IMG/VR virus record: IMGVR_UViG_3300044638_000700
Location: 1-32,366 of that record
DNA: 32,366 nucleotides
Strand: one strand, 5' to 3'
DNA from: a virus
Part shown: in pieces, positions 4,243 through 28,316 of the stretch
Position numbering within the stretch: position 1 is the stretch's first letter
Layout of the letters: every line of letters starts with the position of its first letter
Translations under genes and position numbers: made by a program
The notes under the pieces: model-generated
Told to the model about the DNA's origin: nothing
The model's database searches: none
What the model saw: the letters and a program-made list of their open reading frames with translations, nothing else

Positions 4243-7200
4243 TTACTTGGCATATTTGCCTACCCTTGGAAGCCTGTTTTGAGCAGTTTCTATGCGGCGT
4301 TGGATGGCAGTAGAAAACTTGCTGTTTGCTATCAAGTCCTGCTTTGCCGCTTCCGTGAACGAACTGTAGACTTCAGCAATATTCTGCTGTCTGACATACT
4401 TATCCATGTCTTCAAAGCCTGGCGCTTTGGTGCGCTCCACGATGGCATCCTTCACCCGCAAGCCCTGACCGTCAGTGATCTTGCCAAACTGACGCATCAT
4501 GTATTCGTACTCGTCTGGCTCCAGCTTGACGCTGACACCGCCAACAGTAACAGCCCGATTAGGCTTCTTGATAGACATGCCAAGCTCAATCATGATTTTG
4601 TCTGCTGGACGTTGTTTGCTAGTGGAGAATCTGATGCCACTAGACGATGCCAACCATGGATTGGCTGGGTCAATGTCCATCATCTCTTCACCAAGGTAGT
4701 CATATTGTTTACCTAAGGAGTCGCTCAGGAACGGAGTCTTAGCAACAGACTTGTTTATACCTTCATACCAACCTTTTATTACAGTAGGCAAGTTGGGAGA
4801 TTCTCCAGTCTCACGCTTGTTGGGATCAACAATACGCTCGATTTGCGCTCTGGCACTGCTAAACATGCCAGGAGGAGAGCCTTCAATGACATACTGTGCC
4901 GCAGTGCTTGCAACCTGATTTAAGGCATCTTTGAACGCCTGCTTGGGGTTGGGTATGGTTTGGCTGAAAGCGCCAGCAATCGAACTTATACCAGTCAAAA
5001 ATGGCTGTTGACCGACATAGCTATACAAACCCCATGTTGCACCAAGAATAGCCTGAGCGACCAAGTCTTCATCGTCCTCATACCGAGCATATTCCACGGC
5101 ATCAGCCATCATTGCCATTGGGCCAGCAAGCGGGTCAATGCCACGGAATGGAACATACAACCGTTGATCCTTACCAATGGATGGATCAATCTTCATGGTT
5201 TTAAGGTATTCAACAAACTCAGCATCCCACTCACCAGGCTGGAACACAAATGAGTATGGCTTCCAACCGCTGTCTAAATAGATCTTTCGCAAATTAGCGT
5301 CGCCAGGGCCACCACCTGTAATGCGACCATCTGCAACATATGATCCAACGCCAATCATTAATGTTGAACCCATGCCAAATTTAGCCATGGCAAGTTCACG
5401 CTGTGCGCCACCAGCAGCCATGTCTTTGCGCCACTGGCTGGACAAGAACGCCATTCCACTGTGTTGCATTGACTCACTTAAAACCCATGTCGGAGTCTTA
5501 ACAAACGGCATGGTAATTCTGCCAATCAGATGATCTTGTGCAAGCTCTTGTATTTGCTTGGAAGCGCCAGTCAGCTTACGGCTGAATGTGATCATTTGGG
5601 CAAAGTCTGAGGCGGCTTCATCAATGTTGGCTGGTGGATTAGCCAATGTGTCGCCCATTACTTTTAACTCAATTTGTGCGGCTTCTTCTGCTGTCTTGCC
5701 ATTGGCAATAGCCTCACGCCGTGCTTTTGCGCCAGCACGATATGACTGTGCGGTCAATTCAGCACGATATCCAATTGTCTTAAAAAACTCATCCATTGCC
5801 ATGATTGGACGACCACCAAGCAATGTGACAAAGTTAGCTTGGAAATTAACACCTTTAATCAATGCTTCATTTTCAAAGCCATAGTCTCGTGCATCAAAGA
5901 TGTTGTACTGGCCTTCCAACTTCATGCCGCCATCATCTAAAAGACTTTGCCCAGCCCTTTGCTCACGAGTAGTACCAGTCTTTAATGCCTGCCAACTAAG
6001 GCTCATGCCATCTCTAAAGCCATGAATCATGCCAGACAGCAATGCACCAGCCTCACCAAGCTCAACTTCACCAGTACCGCCAAAAGCACGTTTAGTAGTA
6101 CTGATGCCTCCAGCAATTGCTCGTGTTGCTACGGTGCTTGCCAGCATGGTTGTGTTTGATGCAAAGTTGACAACGTGAGTGCCAGTGGCAGACAGCAAGC
6201 CATTTTTCCAAGTACGATCCCATAAGTCGCCAATTAGTCCAACCTTGCTTACCTTGTTAAGCAACCCTTCTCGTGCGCCATCATCGGTCAATTGCACAAA
6301 CTTCTCAATCATCAACTTCAAGTTGTCAGTCACATTTGGATCTGCCAACATCTTTTTCATCTCAGCATCATTAATAGATGGAATCTTGACGTTGCCAGCT
6401 TCATCCATGATGCCAGAAGCTTTGCCTTCAGTGATCTGCATACGACCAACAGCAGTACCTTGTGCAGATCGAGTACGAGACAAAATATAAGCATCTTGAA
6501 CAGCGCCCTGCAAATTTAACTGCCGCAACAGTTTGGCTTGCAATACTGTGTCATCAGGGTTCAGATATGCCTGTCGTGCCAAAGTATAAAAATCGGTCAT
6601 GCTTTGGTAAGTGGCAAGACGCAGACGGAGTAAGTCAACAGGAATTTCGTTGTATTGTTCTTTCATTGACTGTAGATCAGCAAGAATGTCAGAGCCAAAG
6701 CCCTTTTCCTTAGCCGCAGCCAATGTTTCTTCCCATGTCATTTTGTCAACTTTGATGCCTGTTGCGTCAGACAATGCGTTGACAGTCTGCTTGAAATCAT
6801 CAGGGCCATCAATGCGCTCGACATTGATCAGCGTGTCTGGTGGTTTGCCAGTAACAGGTGCAGTCTCAATCTTTGCCTCAAAGACTTCTAATTGCTTTGG
6901 CAACTCTTCAAGCTTTGCCGCTGGTGTTGGAGCCGCCTTAGCTTTGCGTGGCTTTGGTGTAGCAGGGATAGGCGCAGGAGTCCCCGCTGGAGTAGGCGAT
7001 GGCGTGATTACCTTCTCGCTCTCTTGCAACAGATTCTTTTCAGCCGCAGCCTTTTCAATTTTGCTACCTGCTGGGTTACCAAAGTCTGTGACAACCTTGG
7101 TCAACCCTTTGATGATCTTGTCGCCAAGACCAGCGACTTGGATTGTGGTGTCGTCACCAGCATCAGCAAGTTCTACATCAGCACGAGGCAGATCAGCAGG

Positions 7201-7715: not shown

Positions 7716-9469
7716 TTACCACGCAATATTTTTTGTTGTTGACGCAATGAAGAAATATTATCATTTGGTTCAGTAAACTTATATTTTTTAACCAAGTCGT
7801 CAATGTTTGTGCTTTCGTCAATGACAATGACAGCAGGCAATTTATTTTCCTTAACCATATCGTTAATCACATTTTTGATTTCATTGCGGGCTTTTGTTTT
7901 GTTAGCATCAGCACGGTCAGTAGTGTTGTATGTTTCCTCTGCACTACGAGCAATTTGCTTGTATGGGATTGGCACACCAGGATTGGTTTGTCTAAATGCA
8001 TTTACTTCAGACTCATAAATATCATTAAGACGTTCATTCTTTTTGATTTTGTGTTCGTCTCCTTCGCTTGAAAACAAACTGACAACATCAGGCACACCAG
8101 ACACACGGCGCAAATAGCGAGCGGCATCTGCTTGGTCTTTGTTATATCCTTCCAGCAACTTACTGTTCAGTCGGGTATATTGCTGACCACTCATGCCAGA
8201 CCGCATTGCAACACGCTTCAGTTCTGCTGGATCTGTGATGTCGCCAAACACAATGCGTGTCTCAATGTTGGCATACGCATATGGGTCGCCATCCTTTTGC
8301 TCAGGACTCAAGTACTTGTCCAATTGTTCTAACGAGAAGATGCCCATCTTTGCCACTTGCAGGGCAATGTCTTCCTTGCGCTTCATTGACGTATTCTTCT
8401 GATGAAACTCAATCATCAGAGTATTGGCATCTGCTTCTTTGCGGCGCTTATCTTCTTTCTGGACATCGTCATTCAATGTGCGGCGGTCAGCCAATGCCTG
8501 CATGTAGTTCTTTGAAACTTCTTCAACAGCTTTCAGATCCGTTGCGATCAAGTCTTGCAAGATGTGAGTCTTGTTACCAAGCTGTCCTTTGCGGATTGCA
8601 TCAAGTGTTTGTGTTGGGCTTGCCAAGTACTGATCTGATGTGACAATTTTTGTCACCACATCAATTTTTGCCTGGCGAACAGCTTTGTCATATTCTGCTT
8701 GCAAAGCATTGCCACGCTCAAGACCTCCAATAGCTGTGGCAAATTGTCCAAGCTGTAATCTTTTTGCTTGAATTTTTACATTTGGCGAACGTGGTTTACC
8801 ATTGTCATCAACTTCCAATGGCTCTTCCAACATAGGCTGAAGCATCTTGATTTCATTGTTCAAGGCTTGCTCCAACATCACCATGTCTTGCTCACGCTTA
8901 CGCTTGGCTTCAAGCTCAAAGCCTTTGGACATGATGGTGCTTGCATACATGCCCATTGAGCTGACAAACTTCAGCGCAGCTTCACCATCTTCTTTGCCAA
9001 GCGCACGAGTGAAACCATCGGTCACACTCTTCATTTTGGTGGCAGCGTCTTTGACAGAGATCTCGTTATTCACAAGCTGGTCATAGACCTTGTTGTGTTC
9101 GTTCTTTGCCTCTACCTCAAAGCGACCAGACAACTCATAGCTGCGAGCCTTTTGCAAAGCAATGTCGTAGATGCTGAATCCTTTGCCCAAGGAGAAGTCA
9201 ACAGGGATGCCATTCTTTGCATCTTCAATCTGCTTGTCGGTTACACGGTAGTTCTCAAAATAGTCTGTCAGTGCTTGCTCTTGGGCTTTCTTGCCAGCCT
9301 GTTCAAACAACGTGCCGCTCATGCGATCAAGAATCTGGCCTAATGTTCCAGCCGTTTGTGCTTGCGCTCTAAAGCCAATCTGGTCAACAGCCTGTGGCTG
9401 GATCTGTTGCATTGGCACATTACCAGCACTACGCAGTTGGATCTGTCCTGATTCAATTCTTGTAGCCAT
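7712..9469 (-). CDS. Internal virion protein candidate (T7 gp15-like position)
   Basis: A 585-aa, charged, almost entirely helical protein with many Gln/Lys/Glu coiled-coil stretches and no signal peptide. Size and location (after the nozzle and the small internal protein, before the large one) match the middle ejectosome protein of T7-like phages (gp15, 747 aa). I see no enzyme motif. The start at 9469 is an ATG overlapping the upstream TGA (TGATG); the codon just before it is GTG. Function is inferred from synteny. Confidence 0.6.
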   Translation of the reverse strand: MATRIESGQIQLRSAGNVPMQQIQPQAVDQIGFRAQAQTAGTLGQILDRMSGTLFEQAGKKAQEQALTDYFENYRVTDKQIEDAKNGIPVDFSLGKGFSIYDIALQKARSYELSGRFEVEAKNEHNKVYDQLVNNEISVKDAATKMKSVTDGFTRALGKEDGEAALKFVSSMGMYASTIMSKGFELEAKRKREQDMVMLEQALNNEIKMLQPMLEEPLEVDDNGKPRSPNVKIQAKRLQLGQFATAIGGLERGNALQAEYDKAVRQAKIDVVTKIVTSDQYLASPTQTLDAIRKGQLGNKTHILQDLIATDLKAVEEVSKNYMQALADRRTLNDDVQKEDKRRKEADANTLMIEFHQKNTSMKRKEDIALQVAKMGIFSLEQLDKYLSPEQKDGDPYAYANIETRIVFGDITDPAELKRVAMRSGMSGQQYTRLNSKLLEGYNKDQADAARYLRRVSGVPDVVSLFSSEGDEHKIKKNERLNDIYESEVNAFRQTNPGVPIPYKQIARSAEETYNTTDRADANKTKARNEIKNVINDMVKENKLPAVIVIDESTNIDDLVKKYKFTEPNDNISSLRQQQKILRGK

Positions 9470-14036: not shown

Positions 14037-14067
14037 ATTATATATATCAGTTCTTAACACCTGTCAA
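14037..14067 (-). promoter_or_regulatory. Sigma70-type promoter for the capsid gene
   Basis: On the minus strand a perfect -35 TTGACA (14067-14062) is followed by TATATA at 17 bases (14044-14039) or TATAAT at 19 bases (14042-14037). The -35 contains the TGA stop of the HNH gene. It would give about 145 bases of leader before the capsid ATG. Confidence 0.75.
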
Positions 14068-14405
14068 CACATTTTGTACTTATTTCCCTTTTTCTTATTA
14101 CAAGGGCCGCACATAGGTTGAAGATTGGTTATATCCAAGGAAAGCTCAGGAAAGAACTTGCGAGGCTTTATGTGATCAACATTGATTGGGTACTCCCTAG
14201 AGTTATCCCTTCCACATTGCATACACACTAATCCATATAACTCTAAAGCTTTAAGCCTTAGTTCTTTCCATTCTTTTGATCTTAGGAATCCATCAGAAGA
14301 CTTTCTCAGTCTCAAAGCAATCTCATTGTCAGACAGGTTATCCATCTTAGCTTTCAGAGACAACTTCCTAGATCTTGCTTCTAGACTTCTGATCTGTTGC
14401 TTCAT
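14064..14405 (-). CDS. HNH endonuclease (probable homing type)
   Basis: The product is 113 aa. The C-terminal half is a classic zinc-bound HNH fold: Cys61-x2-Cys64, Asp77-His78 in VDHIKP, Asn94 in TNLQPMC, Cys99-x2-Cys102, then NKKKGNK. The N-terminal half is basic and helical and may bind DNA. It stands alone between scaffold and capsid genes, which are normally adjacent, so I read it as a mobile insertion. Its ATG overlaps the stop of a doubtful 77-codon ORF. It is probably carried on the transcript that includes the structured RNA at 14406-14760. Confidence 0.88.
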   Translation of the reverse strand: MKQQIRSLEARSRKLSLKAKMDNLSDNEIALRLRKSSDGFLRSKEWKELRLKALELYGLVCMQCGRDNSREYPINVDHIKPRKFFPELSLDITNLQPMCGPCNKKKGNKYKMC

Positions 14406-14760
14406 ATAAATGCCCTATGGTGAATGTTTGAGCAAAGCACAGCCTTACCGTGGTCAAAACCAACAGTTCGCCTGTGCTTCGATGTATGCCCTACGGAGCC
14501 ATGCCATCGCATCACACTGAACAGACTTGCAGTCATTGCTGACCTACCACCTGGCTCTATTCTTAGCCCACCATCCCCGCTCTGGCTTGCTCGTGTAACA
14601 GGGTTATTTAAGGTTCTACCACCGACGTGCCGCATAGTTCCCGAGTCGGGAAAGCAAAAACCCTCTGGTTCCAGCTTTCCACGTAACGGCGTGTCCCCAA
14701 AATAAGGGATAGAAAGCTAGAGCCAAAGGGCTTTAGGTGTCGTGCCGTTACGCTTGACGG
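14406..14760 (-). ncRNA. Candidate structured RNA with pseudoknot between scaffold and HNH genes
   Basis: This 424-base gap (14406-14829) lacks a convincing gene but is full of complementary segments on the minus strand. A 9-bp helix (14752-14744 with 14690-14682) crosses a 19-position helix (14730-14712 with 14679-14661; one mismatch, two G-U pairs), so the two form a pseudoknot. Then come a 6-bp stem with a 3-base loop (14652-14638), a hairpin with a GCAA tetraloop (14544-14531), and AAGCACAG/CTGTGCTT (14479-14472 with 14442-14435). The predicted start of transcription lies about 8 bases before the first helix. It matches no RNA family I can name. It could be a 5' leader of the HNH/capsid transcript, a processed RNA, or a relic of a mobile element. 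Confidence 0.5.
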
Positions 14761-14765
14761 GGTTG

Positions 14766-14794
14766 AGTATAGGCGAAAAAAAGCCCCCACGCAA
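14766..14794 (-). promoter_or_regulatory. Sigma70-like promoter overlapping the scaffold terminator
   Basis: On the minus strand TTGCGT (14794-14789, 3/6 match) and TATACT (14771-14766, 5/6 match) are separated by exactly 17 bases. The -35 falls in the loop and descending arm of the terminator. It would start transcription near 14759, just before the pseudoknot. Confidence 0.5.
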
Positions 14795-14802
14795 GTAGGG
14801 GC
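14776..14802 (-). terminator. Rho-independent terminator after the scaffold gene
   Basis: On the minus strand GCCCCTAC, loop TTGC, then GTGGGGGC form an 8-bp stem (one G-U), followed by seven T (14782-14776). It ends transcription 28 bases after the scaffold stop codon and insulates the HNH/capsid unit from portal-scaffold transcription. Confidence 0.9.
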
Positions 14803-27312: not shown

Positions 27313-27508
27313 TTTTTTCCTTCCAGTTGTACTGACCCTTGACTGTGAATCTGCCAGCCTTGCGAAAGATCGTGAGCAATGACTTGTACGGCACACCAAA
27401 TCTAGCGGCAATCTCTTTCTTGCTGAAGCCCTGGTCATGCAAGCTGAAAGCCCTGCGCTCATCAATCTGGATGGGCTTGCGACCACCGCCTCTATATCCC
27501 CGCTTCAT
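27305..27508 (-). CDS. Small helix-turn-helix protein
   Basis: A 67-aa basic protein. GGGRKPIQIDERRAFSLHDQGFSKKEIAARFGVPYKSLLTIFRKAG is a homeodomain-like/resolvase-type helix-turn-helix (about 8-53). No catalytic domain is attached, so it is a small regulator or an accessory DNA-binding protein. Its start lies inside the 3' end of the methyltransferase gene (17-base overlap) and its ATG is coupled to the end of the alternate ORF at 27509. Confidence 0.65.
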   Translation of the reverse strand: MKRGYRGGGRKPIQIDERRAFSLHDQGFSKKEIAARFGVPYKSLLTIFRKAGRFTVKGQYNWKEKNG

Positions 27509-28316
27509 TTAAGACTCTCCATGCTGTTGCGGCGCACAATGGGACTTGTCCGTTGCCAATGGCTTTAAGTCTGTCCACCCGACAGGCCACCCCATGAGCC
27601 ACTCTACCCACGGCGGGTTCAACTGACCACCATTCCCTGCTCCCATCAGTCGGGCCTCTTCCACTGTCGTGTTCTTGTTGAGCAAATCCCAACTCCCAGT
27701 CCCGCCACACATCCCTGCTGTGCGTGGGGTTGGCCAGGTTAGCACCGCTGTGCTGAGACTTGTTTGCGTCCCCTTCTTTCCATCCCTGCGAATCTGCAAC
27801 CCCTGCCTTGCCTCCGAATGAACTGGCGTTGGCCACAATCCACATTCTGTCCCGCTGGTGTGGTGCGCCAATGTCGGCAGCTCCCATAACAGTCCATCTC
27901 GTGTCATACCCCATTTGGGTAAGGTCAGCAATGACTCGTGTTCCTCCCCTAGTAGTGAGCATTGGGCTGTTCTCCACGAACACGAATCGGGGTCGAACTT
28001 CGCTAACCACCCTCGCCATGTGTGTCCAGAGTCCTGACCGCTCCCCATCCAGTCCATCCCCTTTTCCTGCGGCTGAGATGTCCTGACAGGGAAAACCCCC
28101 GCTGATGACATCGACTTTGCCTCGCCAAGGGTTTCCATCAAAGGTACAGATGTCGTCCCAGATAGGGAATCTAGGTAAGAATCCGTCAGCTTGCCTTTGC
28201 AATAGAACTCTGCGTGGGTAATCTTCGATTTCAACGGCGGCAACGGTTCGCCACCCAAGCAGATGTCCTCCAAGGATTCCCCCGCCACTTCCCGCAAATA
28301 GTGCCAGCTCATTCAT
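27492..28316 (-). CDS. C5 cytosine DNA methyltransferase
   Basis: The product is 274 aa. The C5-methylase motifs appear in order: motif I LFAGSGG (6-12) binding SAM, motif IV GGFPCQDIS with catalytic Cys77, motif VI FVFVENSP (Glu115), motif VIII QRDRMWIV (154-161), and the motif IX/X-like RLKAIGNGQVP (249-259). The target-recognition region between VIII and IX is short (about 165-245), and the protein is smaller than M.HhaI (327 aa). It methylates cytosine in an unknown sequence, probably to evade host restriction; no partner nuclease gene is in view. The ATG overlaps the stop of the 54-aa coiled-coil gene. A second ORF (27509-28312) occupies nearly the whole gene. Confidence 0.92.
   Translation of the reverse strand: MNELALFAGSGGGILGGHLLGWRTVAAVEIEDYPRRVLLQRQADGFLPRFPIWDDICTFDGNPWRGKVDVISGGFPCQDISAAGKGDGLDGERSGLWTHMARVVSEVRPRFVFVENSPMLTTRGGTRVIADLTQMGYDTRWTVMGAADIGAPHQRDRMWIVANASSFGGKAGVADSQGWKEGDANKSQHSGANLANPTHSRDVWRDWELGFAQQEHDSGRGPTDGSREWWSVEPAVGRVAHGVACRVDRLKAIGNGQVPLCAATAWRVLNEAGI
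27509..28312 (-). CDS. Alternate-frame ORF inside the methyltransferase gene (possible overprinted gene)
   Basis: 267 codons open in another frame of the same strand, starting 4 bases after the methyltransferase ATG (ATGAATGAG). The product is unusually Trp-rich (14 Trp) and highly patterned: SWHYLRE start, FPVRTSQPQEKG (74-85), WLAKFDPDSCSWRTAQCSLLG (102-122), KWGMTRDG (133-140), two WPTP motifs (160, 193) and LNPPWVEWLMGWPVGWTDL (231-249). I recall proteins of this architecture as separately predicted phage products. The last motif is the other-frame reading of the methylase motif IX/X. It is either a true dual-coding gene or a recurrent shadow of the methylase sequence. No function known. 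Confidence 0.5.
   Translation of the reverse strand: MSWHYLREVAGESLEDICLGGEPLPPLKSKITHAEFYCKGKLTDSYLDSLSGTTSVPLMETLGEAKSMSSAGVFPVRTSQPQEKGMDWMGSGQDSGHTWRGWLAKFDPDSCSWRTAQCSLLGEEHESLLTLPKWGMTRDGLLWELPTLAHHTSGTECGLWPTPVHSEARQGLQIRRDGKKGTQTSLSTAVLTWPTPRTAGMCGGTGSWDLLNKNTTVEEARLMGAGNGGQLNPPWVEWLMGWPVGWTDLKPLATDKSHCAPQQHGES

Follow-up and report, generated by a model that had tools for sequence, protein, structure and literature searches.

What occupies the gap between the scaffold gene and the HNH and capsid genes of an uncultured aquatic phage? The window, that is, the whole stretch of DNA analysed, is a 32,366-base IMG/VR phage contig from a podoviral relative of Methylophilales phage MEP301, with which it shares 77% capsid identity. 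The first-pass annotation had proposed a pseudoknotted RNA at this site and had left three readings of it: a new phage RNA, a cis-regulator of the HNH or capsid gene, or a relic of an HNH mobile element. The analysis described here places an RNA of about 350 nt on the minus strand (14760-14410), where the gene order is connector, scaffold, RNA, HNH, capsid and tail. The RNA lies between complete genes and interrupts none. It almost certainly represents a new modular family of phage RNAs, with its own promoter, a kissing 5′ module and a pseudoknotted 3′ module.

The surroundings of the RNA are well defined. On its upstream side, the scaffold gene ends at an intrinsic terminator recognised from the sequence (14776-14802, minus strand; GCCCC...GGGGC followed by T7), which stands at the same position also in loci without the RNA. 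Directly behind the RNA lies a gene for an HNH endonuclease of 113 aa (14064-14405, minus strand; Pfam PF01844, E 8.6e-12), and the capsid gene has a separate predicted promoter (TTGACA ... TATAAT, 14037-14067, minus strand) that recurs whether or not a locus has the RNA. Comparison of 80 capsid-anchored loci showed that the scaffold-capsid gap usually measures about 250 nt. At this same site, close relatives carry the RNA without the HNH gene (L008, 93% identical; L043, L044 and L047, 85%), and ten other capsid-anchored loci have a different 3′ sequence after the same 5′ architecture. The gaps of L018 and L061 contain no RNA and keep promoter-like or TCCAAACC remnants, which suggests the loss of an RNA that was formerly present. 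Elsewhere in the window, a second HNH/homing-endonuclease-like gene (931-1599) adjoins the tail fibre gene, and a C5 cytosine methyltransferase gene (PF00145) is found at 27492-28316.

Promoter and 5′ module

No phage RNA polymerase was found among the window genes scanned, which makes the use of host sigma70 promoters plausible. A candidate of this type, TTGCGT-17-TATACT (14766-14794, minus strand; TTGCGT 14794-14789, TATACT 14771-14766), sits within the terminator hairpin of the scaffold gene and predicts an RNA start at 14760, about 6 nt past the −10 box. The promoter-like element of the first-pass annotation gained weight from the comparison of relatives, because in 56 of 62 high-scoring family upstreams the module begins exactly 6 nt past the end of the −10 box, indicating that promoter and RNA travel together. 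In one relative (L006) the promoter reads TTGACA-16-TATACT.

The 5′ module (14656-14760, minus strand), supported by covariation, consists of two helices, A and B, an inner hairpin (UCCC...GGGA) and then a U-run (14660-14656). Helix A pairs CGTAACGGC (14752-14744) with GCCGTTACG (14690-14682) over 9 bp, and helix B pairs CCCTTTGGCTCTAGCTTTC (14730-14712) with GAAAGCTGGAACCAGAGGG (14679-14661) over 19 positions that include one C-A mismatch and two G-U pairs. The two helices cross in the order A5-B5-A3-B3, in full agreement with the positions, lengths and mismatch counts first proposed for them. The 5′ strand of helix A lies within the loop of a small hairpin (hairpin 1, 14739-14758, minus strand; GTC 14758-14756 with GAC 14741-14739), and helix A is therefore a loop-loop, or kissing, pairing. 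In the 5′ module, then, the loop of a small hairpin and that of a long, terminator-like helix kiss each other.

The compensatory changes by which the pseudoknot was to be judged are present in both crossing helices. When eight window-type 5′ modules were aligned, all 272 cells formed standard pairs (34 pairs, 100%), and double-sided changes occurred in nine pairs, four of them in helix A, two in helix B and three in the inner hairpin. None of 500 shuffles of this alignment was as good, and slid controls paired in 34-50% of cells; because the alignments are sequence-driven and shuffle statistics run too high when sequences are related, safer evidence comes from the slid controls and from the comparison of self- with cross-complementarity. 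In the GTTG...CAAC subtype, every A5 loop of 25 members perfectly complements its own B loop over 7-9 nt, with 19 different stems among the 25 sequences, and at least 7 nt of complementarity are reached in 3.4% of cross pairs. Self-complementarity was accordingly positive in 25 of 25 modules of this subtype and in the eight of the window type, and in a third subtype it reached at least 7 nt in 47 of 53 sequences versus 7.6% of cross pairs. Covariation together with the self-versus-cross comparison establishes that the 5′ pseudoknot is real. Folding of the RNA as a single sequence was moderately unusual (z = −2.57).

Helix B is followed directly by at least five U in every aligned member, and this U-run is invariant. 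All aligned members thus show the arrangement of an intrinsic terminator, a GC-rich hairpin and then T5 or more, so that some transcripts probably end there. A match of the region to the Rfam Phe_leader model (E 0.2, far below gathering) was set aside, as helix B resembles any long terminator hairpin.

The 3′ module and its self-matching tag

Stretches that match a 20-base pattern from the 3′ end of the RNA share a 3′ module of about 240 nt, here called type A, which in the window extends over 14410-14648 (minus strand) and comprises helices P1 to P6a. The type A covariance model finds one copy in the window (14572-14406, E 6.5e-37). The alignment places P2 at 14603-14599:14579-14575, and a second pseudoknot is formed by P3 (14573-14571:14554-14552) and P4 (14562-14559:14522-14519), which cross each other. 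There follow a GNRA hairpin (GTCA-GCAA-TGAC, 14543-14532), P5 (14509-14505:14484-14480), and P6 (14477-14472:14442-14437) with P6a (14462-14459:14454-14451), all on the minus strand. Pairing holds in 96.7% of cells across 22 type A sequences, and double-sided changes number 100, versus 28 in shuffles. This extends to the crossing helices P3 and P4, in which every cell pairs. Of the three further hairpins reported at first, the one with the GCAA tetraloop stands as drawn; as a plain series of hairpins the description had to be revised, because they belong to this 3′ module with its second pseudoknot. An ORF of 77 aa that covers the region (14402-14635) was rejected as protein-coding, since its frame is not kept and the base pairs co-vary; the segment after the first tag copy, described below, ranges from 33 to 50 nt across relatives and falls into all three frame classes.

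The type A module ends with hairpin P6, an invariant GGTAAGGCTGTGCTTTGCTC, CACCA and a tag of 7-9 nt; the invariance of GGTAAGGCTGTGCTTTGCTC follows from the construction of the search, and a divergent copy (L258) differs in it. The tag occurs twice in the RNA. In the window, copy 1 (TAGGGCAT, 14486-14493, minus strand) lies in the loop closed by P5, a helix that co-varies by eye, and copy 2 (TAGGGCAT, 14410-14417, minus strand) follows CACCA immediately, at a point that is both the 3′ border of the RNA and the place of the HNH ribosome-binding site. The two copies agree over at least 7 nt in 85% of cases and over 26 distinct tags, compared with 3.8% of cross pairs, and none of 2000 permutations equalled the observed match. 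Where RNA copies share both the next gene and the flank, their two tags differ in concert (AAAGGCA and AAGAGCA). No complement of the tag was found at a fixed place in the RNA or in the 400 nt downstream, where single hits were few and scattered. Because the identity is kept without a fixed complement in cis, the natural partner of the tag would be the DNA template strand opposite copy 2. Across the 26 tag variants, a loop further upstream repeats the non-template sequence close to the RNA 3′ end, as would be expected of a preprimer of the ColE1 RNA II type.

A second kind of 3′ module, type B, shows only a looser purine-rich repeat in place of the type A tag pair. It has crossing helices of its own, recognised by eye (ACCAG/CTGGT with GATTGA/TCAATC; in other sequences, for example, CAGCGA/TCGCTG). 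Type B occupies the scaffold-capsid gap of L002, L003, L005, L006, L036, L046, L049, L055, L074 and L077 and is present in further phages. It ends in a Shine-Dalgarno-like GGAG and an ATG that could start a DnaT-like gene; where no gene follows, a conserved GGRGAA..CTATG opens a minimal, minigene-like frame, MPK* or MPKNS*. A group I-like core seen by eye in type B (P3-P7-P8 order) was discarded, as it has no P4-P6 and no Rfam match. Two loci depart from the common layout. In L085 (about 4510-4750) the 3′ module lacks P2 to P5, an internal deletion which may mean either that the 3′ part is itself divisible or that the contig is misassembled. In L006 (about 2440-2800) an extra 190 nt or so with a T-arm-like GGTTCGACTCC lie between the 5′ and 3′ modules; a tRNA-like piece was considered here, and ARAGORN calls no tRNA.

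A new family of phage RNAs

The exact 20-base pattern from the 3′ end matches at least 120 IMG/VR stretches, and the family is found in over a hundred contigs of uncultured aquatic phages, with RNAs of about 350-520 nt. Each of the two 3′ module types is found joined to 5′ modules of the kissing subtype as well as to those of the GTCTAGAGTGG subtype (counts of these combinations include repeats, because the loci overlap), and the 5′ and 3′ modules are therefore exchangeable between phages. Type A was found as a single copy in 18 contigs (16 of 20 scanned, plus the window and G001), which means one copy per record seen, since the collections hold fragments; type A is missing from the remaining 4 of the 20, which had been chosen for type B. 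Neither 50,697 phage records nor the PLSDB plasmids contain type A, and its exact 20-mer is absent from GTDB contigs. One type B was found in GenBank, in the environmental podovirus MW202484.1, behind a DnaT-like gene. The RNA of this record (about 33511-33885; 8512-8886 of locus L308) combines a kissing 5′ module with type B, and the hypothetical protein annotated over it (8534-8893 of the locus) is probably spurious. A profile search found no module of any type in three related phages of 32-34 kb (L065, L073 and L081, or G004-G006).

No RNA in Rfam matched beyond noise, either at the gathering threshold or at E ≤ 5. At these thresholds the covariance models of GOLLD, ROOL and OLE gave no match, nor did the Rfam models of group I and group II introns and of HEARO, in keeping with the first-pass annotation, which could match the RNA neither to group I introns nor to known large phage RNAs. 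We know of no counterpart of the self-matching tag pair among catalogued phage RNAs. A search of open-access full texts found no description of the RNA. The family is rated new because no covariance model, annotated record or searchable open-access paper describes it, and because its co-varying tag pair has no known counterpart either. The suggestion of a new phage RNA is thereby upheld, by strong covariation, by the absence of any Rfam match and by the occurrence in over a hundred phage contigs. If the family stands, current RNA libraries miss a structured RNA that is present, unannotated and in a single copy, in these contigs of aquatic phages; its fold is backed by covariation of the kind accepted for RNA families, so that the RNA is open to probing and solving.

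The wider kind to which the RNA belongs, large structured phage RNAs of unknown function such as GOLLD and ROOL, is already known. Like these, it is phage-encoded, large and pseudoknotted or kissing, and, as in GOLLD, its 3′ part is conserved and its 5′ part variable or exchangeable (PMC12286853). It differs from both in being shorter (about 350-520 nt), in its sequence and fold, in the lack of an Rfam match, and in having a promoter-locked start, a U-run between its modules and a co-varying tag pair. The put RNA of HK022, which measures about 70 nt, forms two stem-loops and is present twice per genome, is likewise a phage RNA that heads early operons behind sigma70 promoters (PMC9378689), whereas the RNA described here has about 350 nt, well outside the size of put, one copy and two pseudoknots. 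In type III toxin-antitoxin systems, the ToxI pseudoknot RNA is followed by a terminator and then by a gene. That order recurs here, but tandem repeats are lacking and no ToxN-like gene was recognised behind the RNA.

The gene behind the RNA differs between phages, and the RNA is close to it and in the same orientation. In the largest group the next gene matches replication initiation and primosomal protein families; others encode capsid, small zinc-ribbon-like or PAPS-reductase-like proteins (the last recognised by eye). In many phages the RNA heads the replication operon and in the window it occupies the scaffold-capsid gap, so that its position is free; many contigs have it at the start of a rightward operon that adjoins leftward genes. 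Of 112 distinct RNA copies, about 12 are followed at fixed spacing by a gene of one HNH family, and the HNH gene is a passenger of the RNA. The notion of an HNH relic is not supported as the main reading, given that about 100 of the 112 copies have no adjacent HNH gene and that close relatives hold an intact RNA at the same site without it. The variation of the next gene equally rules out cis-regulation of the HNH or capsid gene as the general function, and the capsid gene keeps its own promoter.

What the RNA may do

Beyond the fold of the RNA, we infer every functional step. The most likely function, put forward tentatively and by analogy with ColE1 RNA II, is that the RNA pairs with its own template DNA at the 3′ border and primes replication. 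Host RNA polymerase would transcribe the RNA from the sigma70 promoter; part of the transcripts would stop at the U-run and part would read on. The folded 3′ module would then present the loop copy of the tag, which has the sequence of the non-template strand at the 3′ border of the RNA itself and so could pair with the template strand there. The resulting R-loop would prime replication or open the phage genome for it and give entry to a primosomal protein of the DnaT/O type, whose gene often lies immediately after the RNA, with the HNH gene using the conserved 3′ end of the RNA merely as a landing place. An upstream loop of ColE1 RNA II is said, after Masukata and Tomizawa, to be able to pair with template DNA near the 3′ end. 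Both RNAs would be structured products of a sigma70 promoter with variable kissing-loop specificity and an upstream loop directed at template DNA; they differ in that there is no sequence relation, the varying loop here kisses in cis and no antisense RNA was found. Priming of this kind is ranked first because no other reading accounts at once for the paired tags, the occurrence as one copy, the freedom of position and the primosomal link. Against it, the tag has only 7-9 nt, type B has only the looser repeat, and many transcripts would end at the U-run without reaching the tag. If the RNA is an origin, the related phages G004-G006, with no RNA detected, indicate that it is not the sole kind. 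The RNA lies at most 4% of genome length from the GC-skew minimum in 11 of 19 contigs, a proximity seen neither in the window, whose GC skew taken by itself carries no information, nor in the other contigs tested that have the RNA at the capsid site; it is weak evidence for an origin, since in most positive contigs the minimum coincides with the switch in gene orientation and the contigs are related.

A doubtful but substantial alternative is a cis-acting leader, with the pseudoknot-stabilised U-run hairpin as an attenuator and the 3′ module controlling read-through, as put does, or translation. The promoter locked to the RNA start, the invariant terminator-like U-run and the position close to a co-oriented next gene, often at the head of a rightward operon, would all suit a leader, as would the GGAG and ATG with which type B can start a DnaT-like gene. 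However, that next gene varies from phage to phage, and the two identical tags are left unexplained. At the capsid site, moreover, the start codon of type B opens a frame of only 3-5 codons and the capsid gene has a promoter of its own, and still the RNA is intact.

On a broader and more speculative scale, priming by the RNA would make the family a widespread class of exchangeable pseudoknot modules in which a self-copied tag, aimed at its own template, serves lytic phages as a movable RNA-based replication origin.

It is improbable, though worth weighing, that the RNA acts in trans as an ornate RNA of the GOLLD/ROOL type, large, perhaps oligomeric and belonging to the lytic cycle, with intermolecular kissing loops that keep assembly phage-specific. 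The single copy, the independence of position and the elaborate fold point in this direction, as do the conserved 3′ and exchangeable 5′ parts known from GOLLD (PMC12286853) and kissing stems that diverge between phages and match within one RNA. Yet sequence and structure match none of the GOLLD, ROOL or OLE models, the window holds no tRNA neighbourhood around the RNA, and the tag pair again goes unexplained.

The HNH neighbour recalls HEARO and the omega RNAs of IscB and IsrB, structured RNAs that lie directly upstream of an HNH-containing gene and also occur as RNA-only copies (PMC9755519). An RNA-guided or HNH-assisted mobile element of this sort, with the loop tag as guide and the border tag as target beside the insert, would account for the identity of the tags, for RNA-only copies and empty sites, and for one HNH family at constant spacing in different genomes. 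It is nevertheless unlikely, because both tags change together at the same gene and flank, as a fixed target would not, and the empty sites looked at show no tag. Further differences are the missing HEARO match in Rfam, the absence of an adjacent IscB/IsrB protein (RuvC plus HNH) in favour of an HNH protein of 113 aa without the size of IscB or its RuvC part, the occurrence of HNH in a minority of copies, and the lack of a flank-derived 5′ guide.

That the tags are mere direct repeats, homogenised by gene conversion or DNA recombination and without a role at the RNA level, is very unlikely: identical copies of 7-9 bp do flank a hairpin, but the window genes scanned include no site-specific recombinase, the segment between the repeats was not missing from any contig seen, and copy 1 lies inside hairpin P5, which co-varies by eye.
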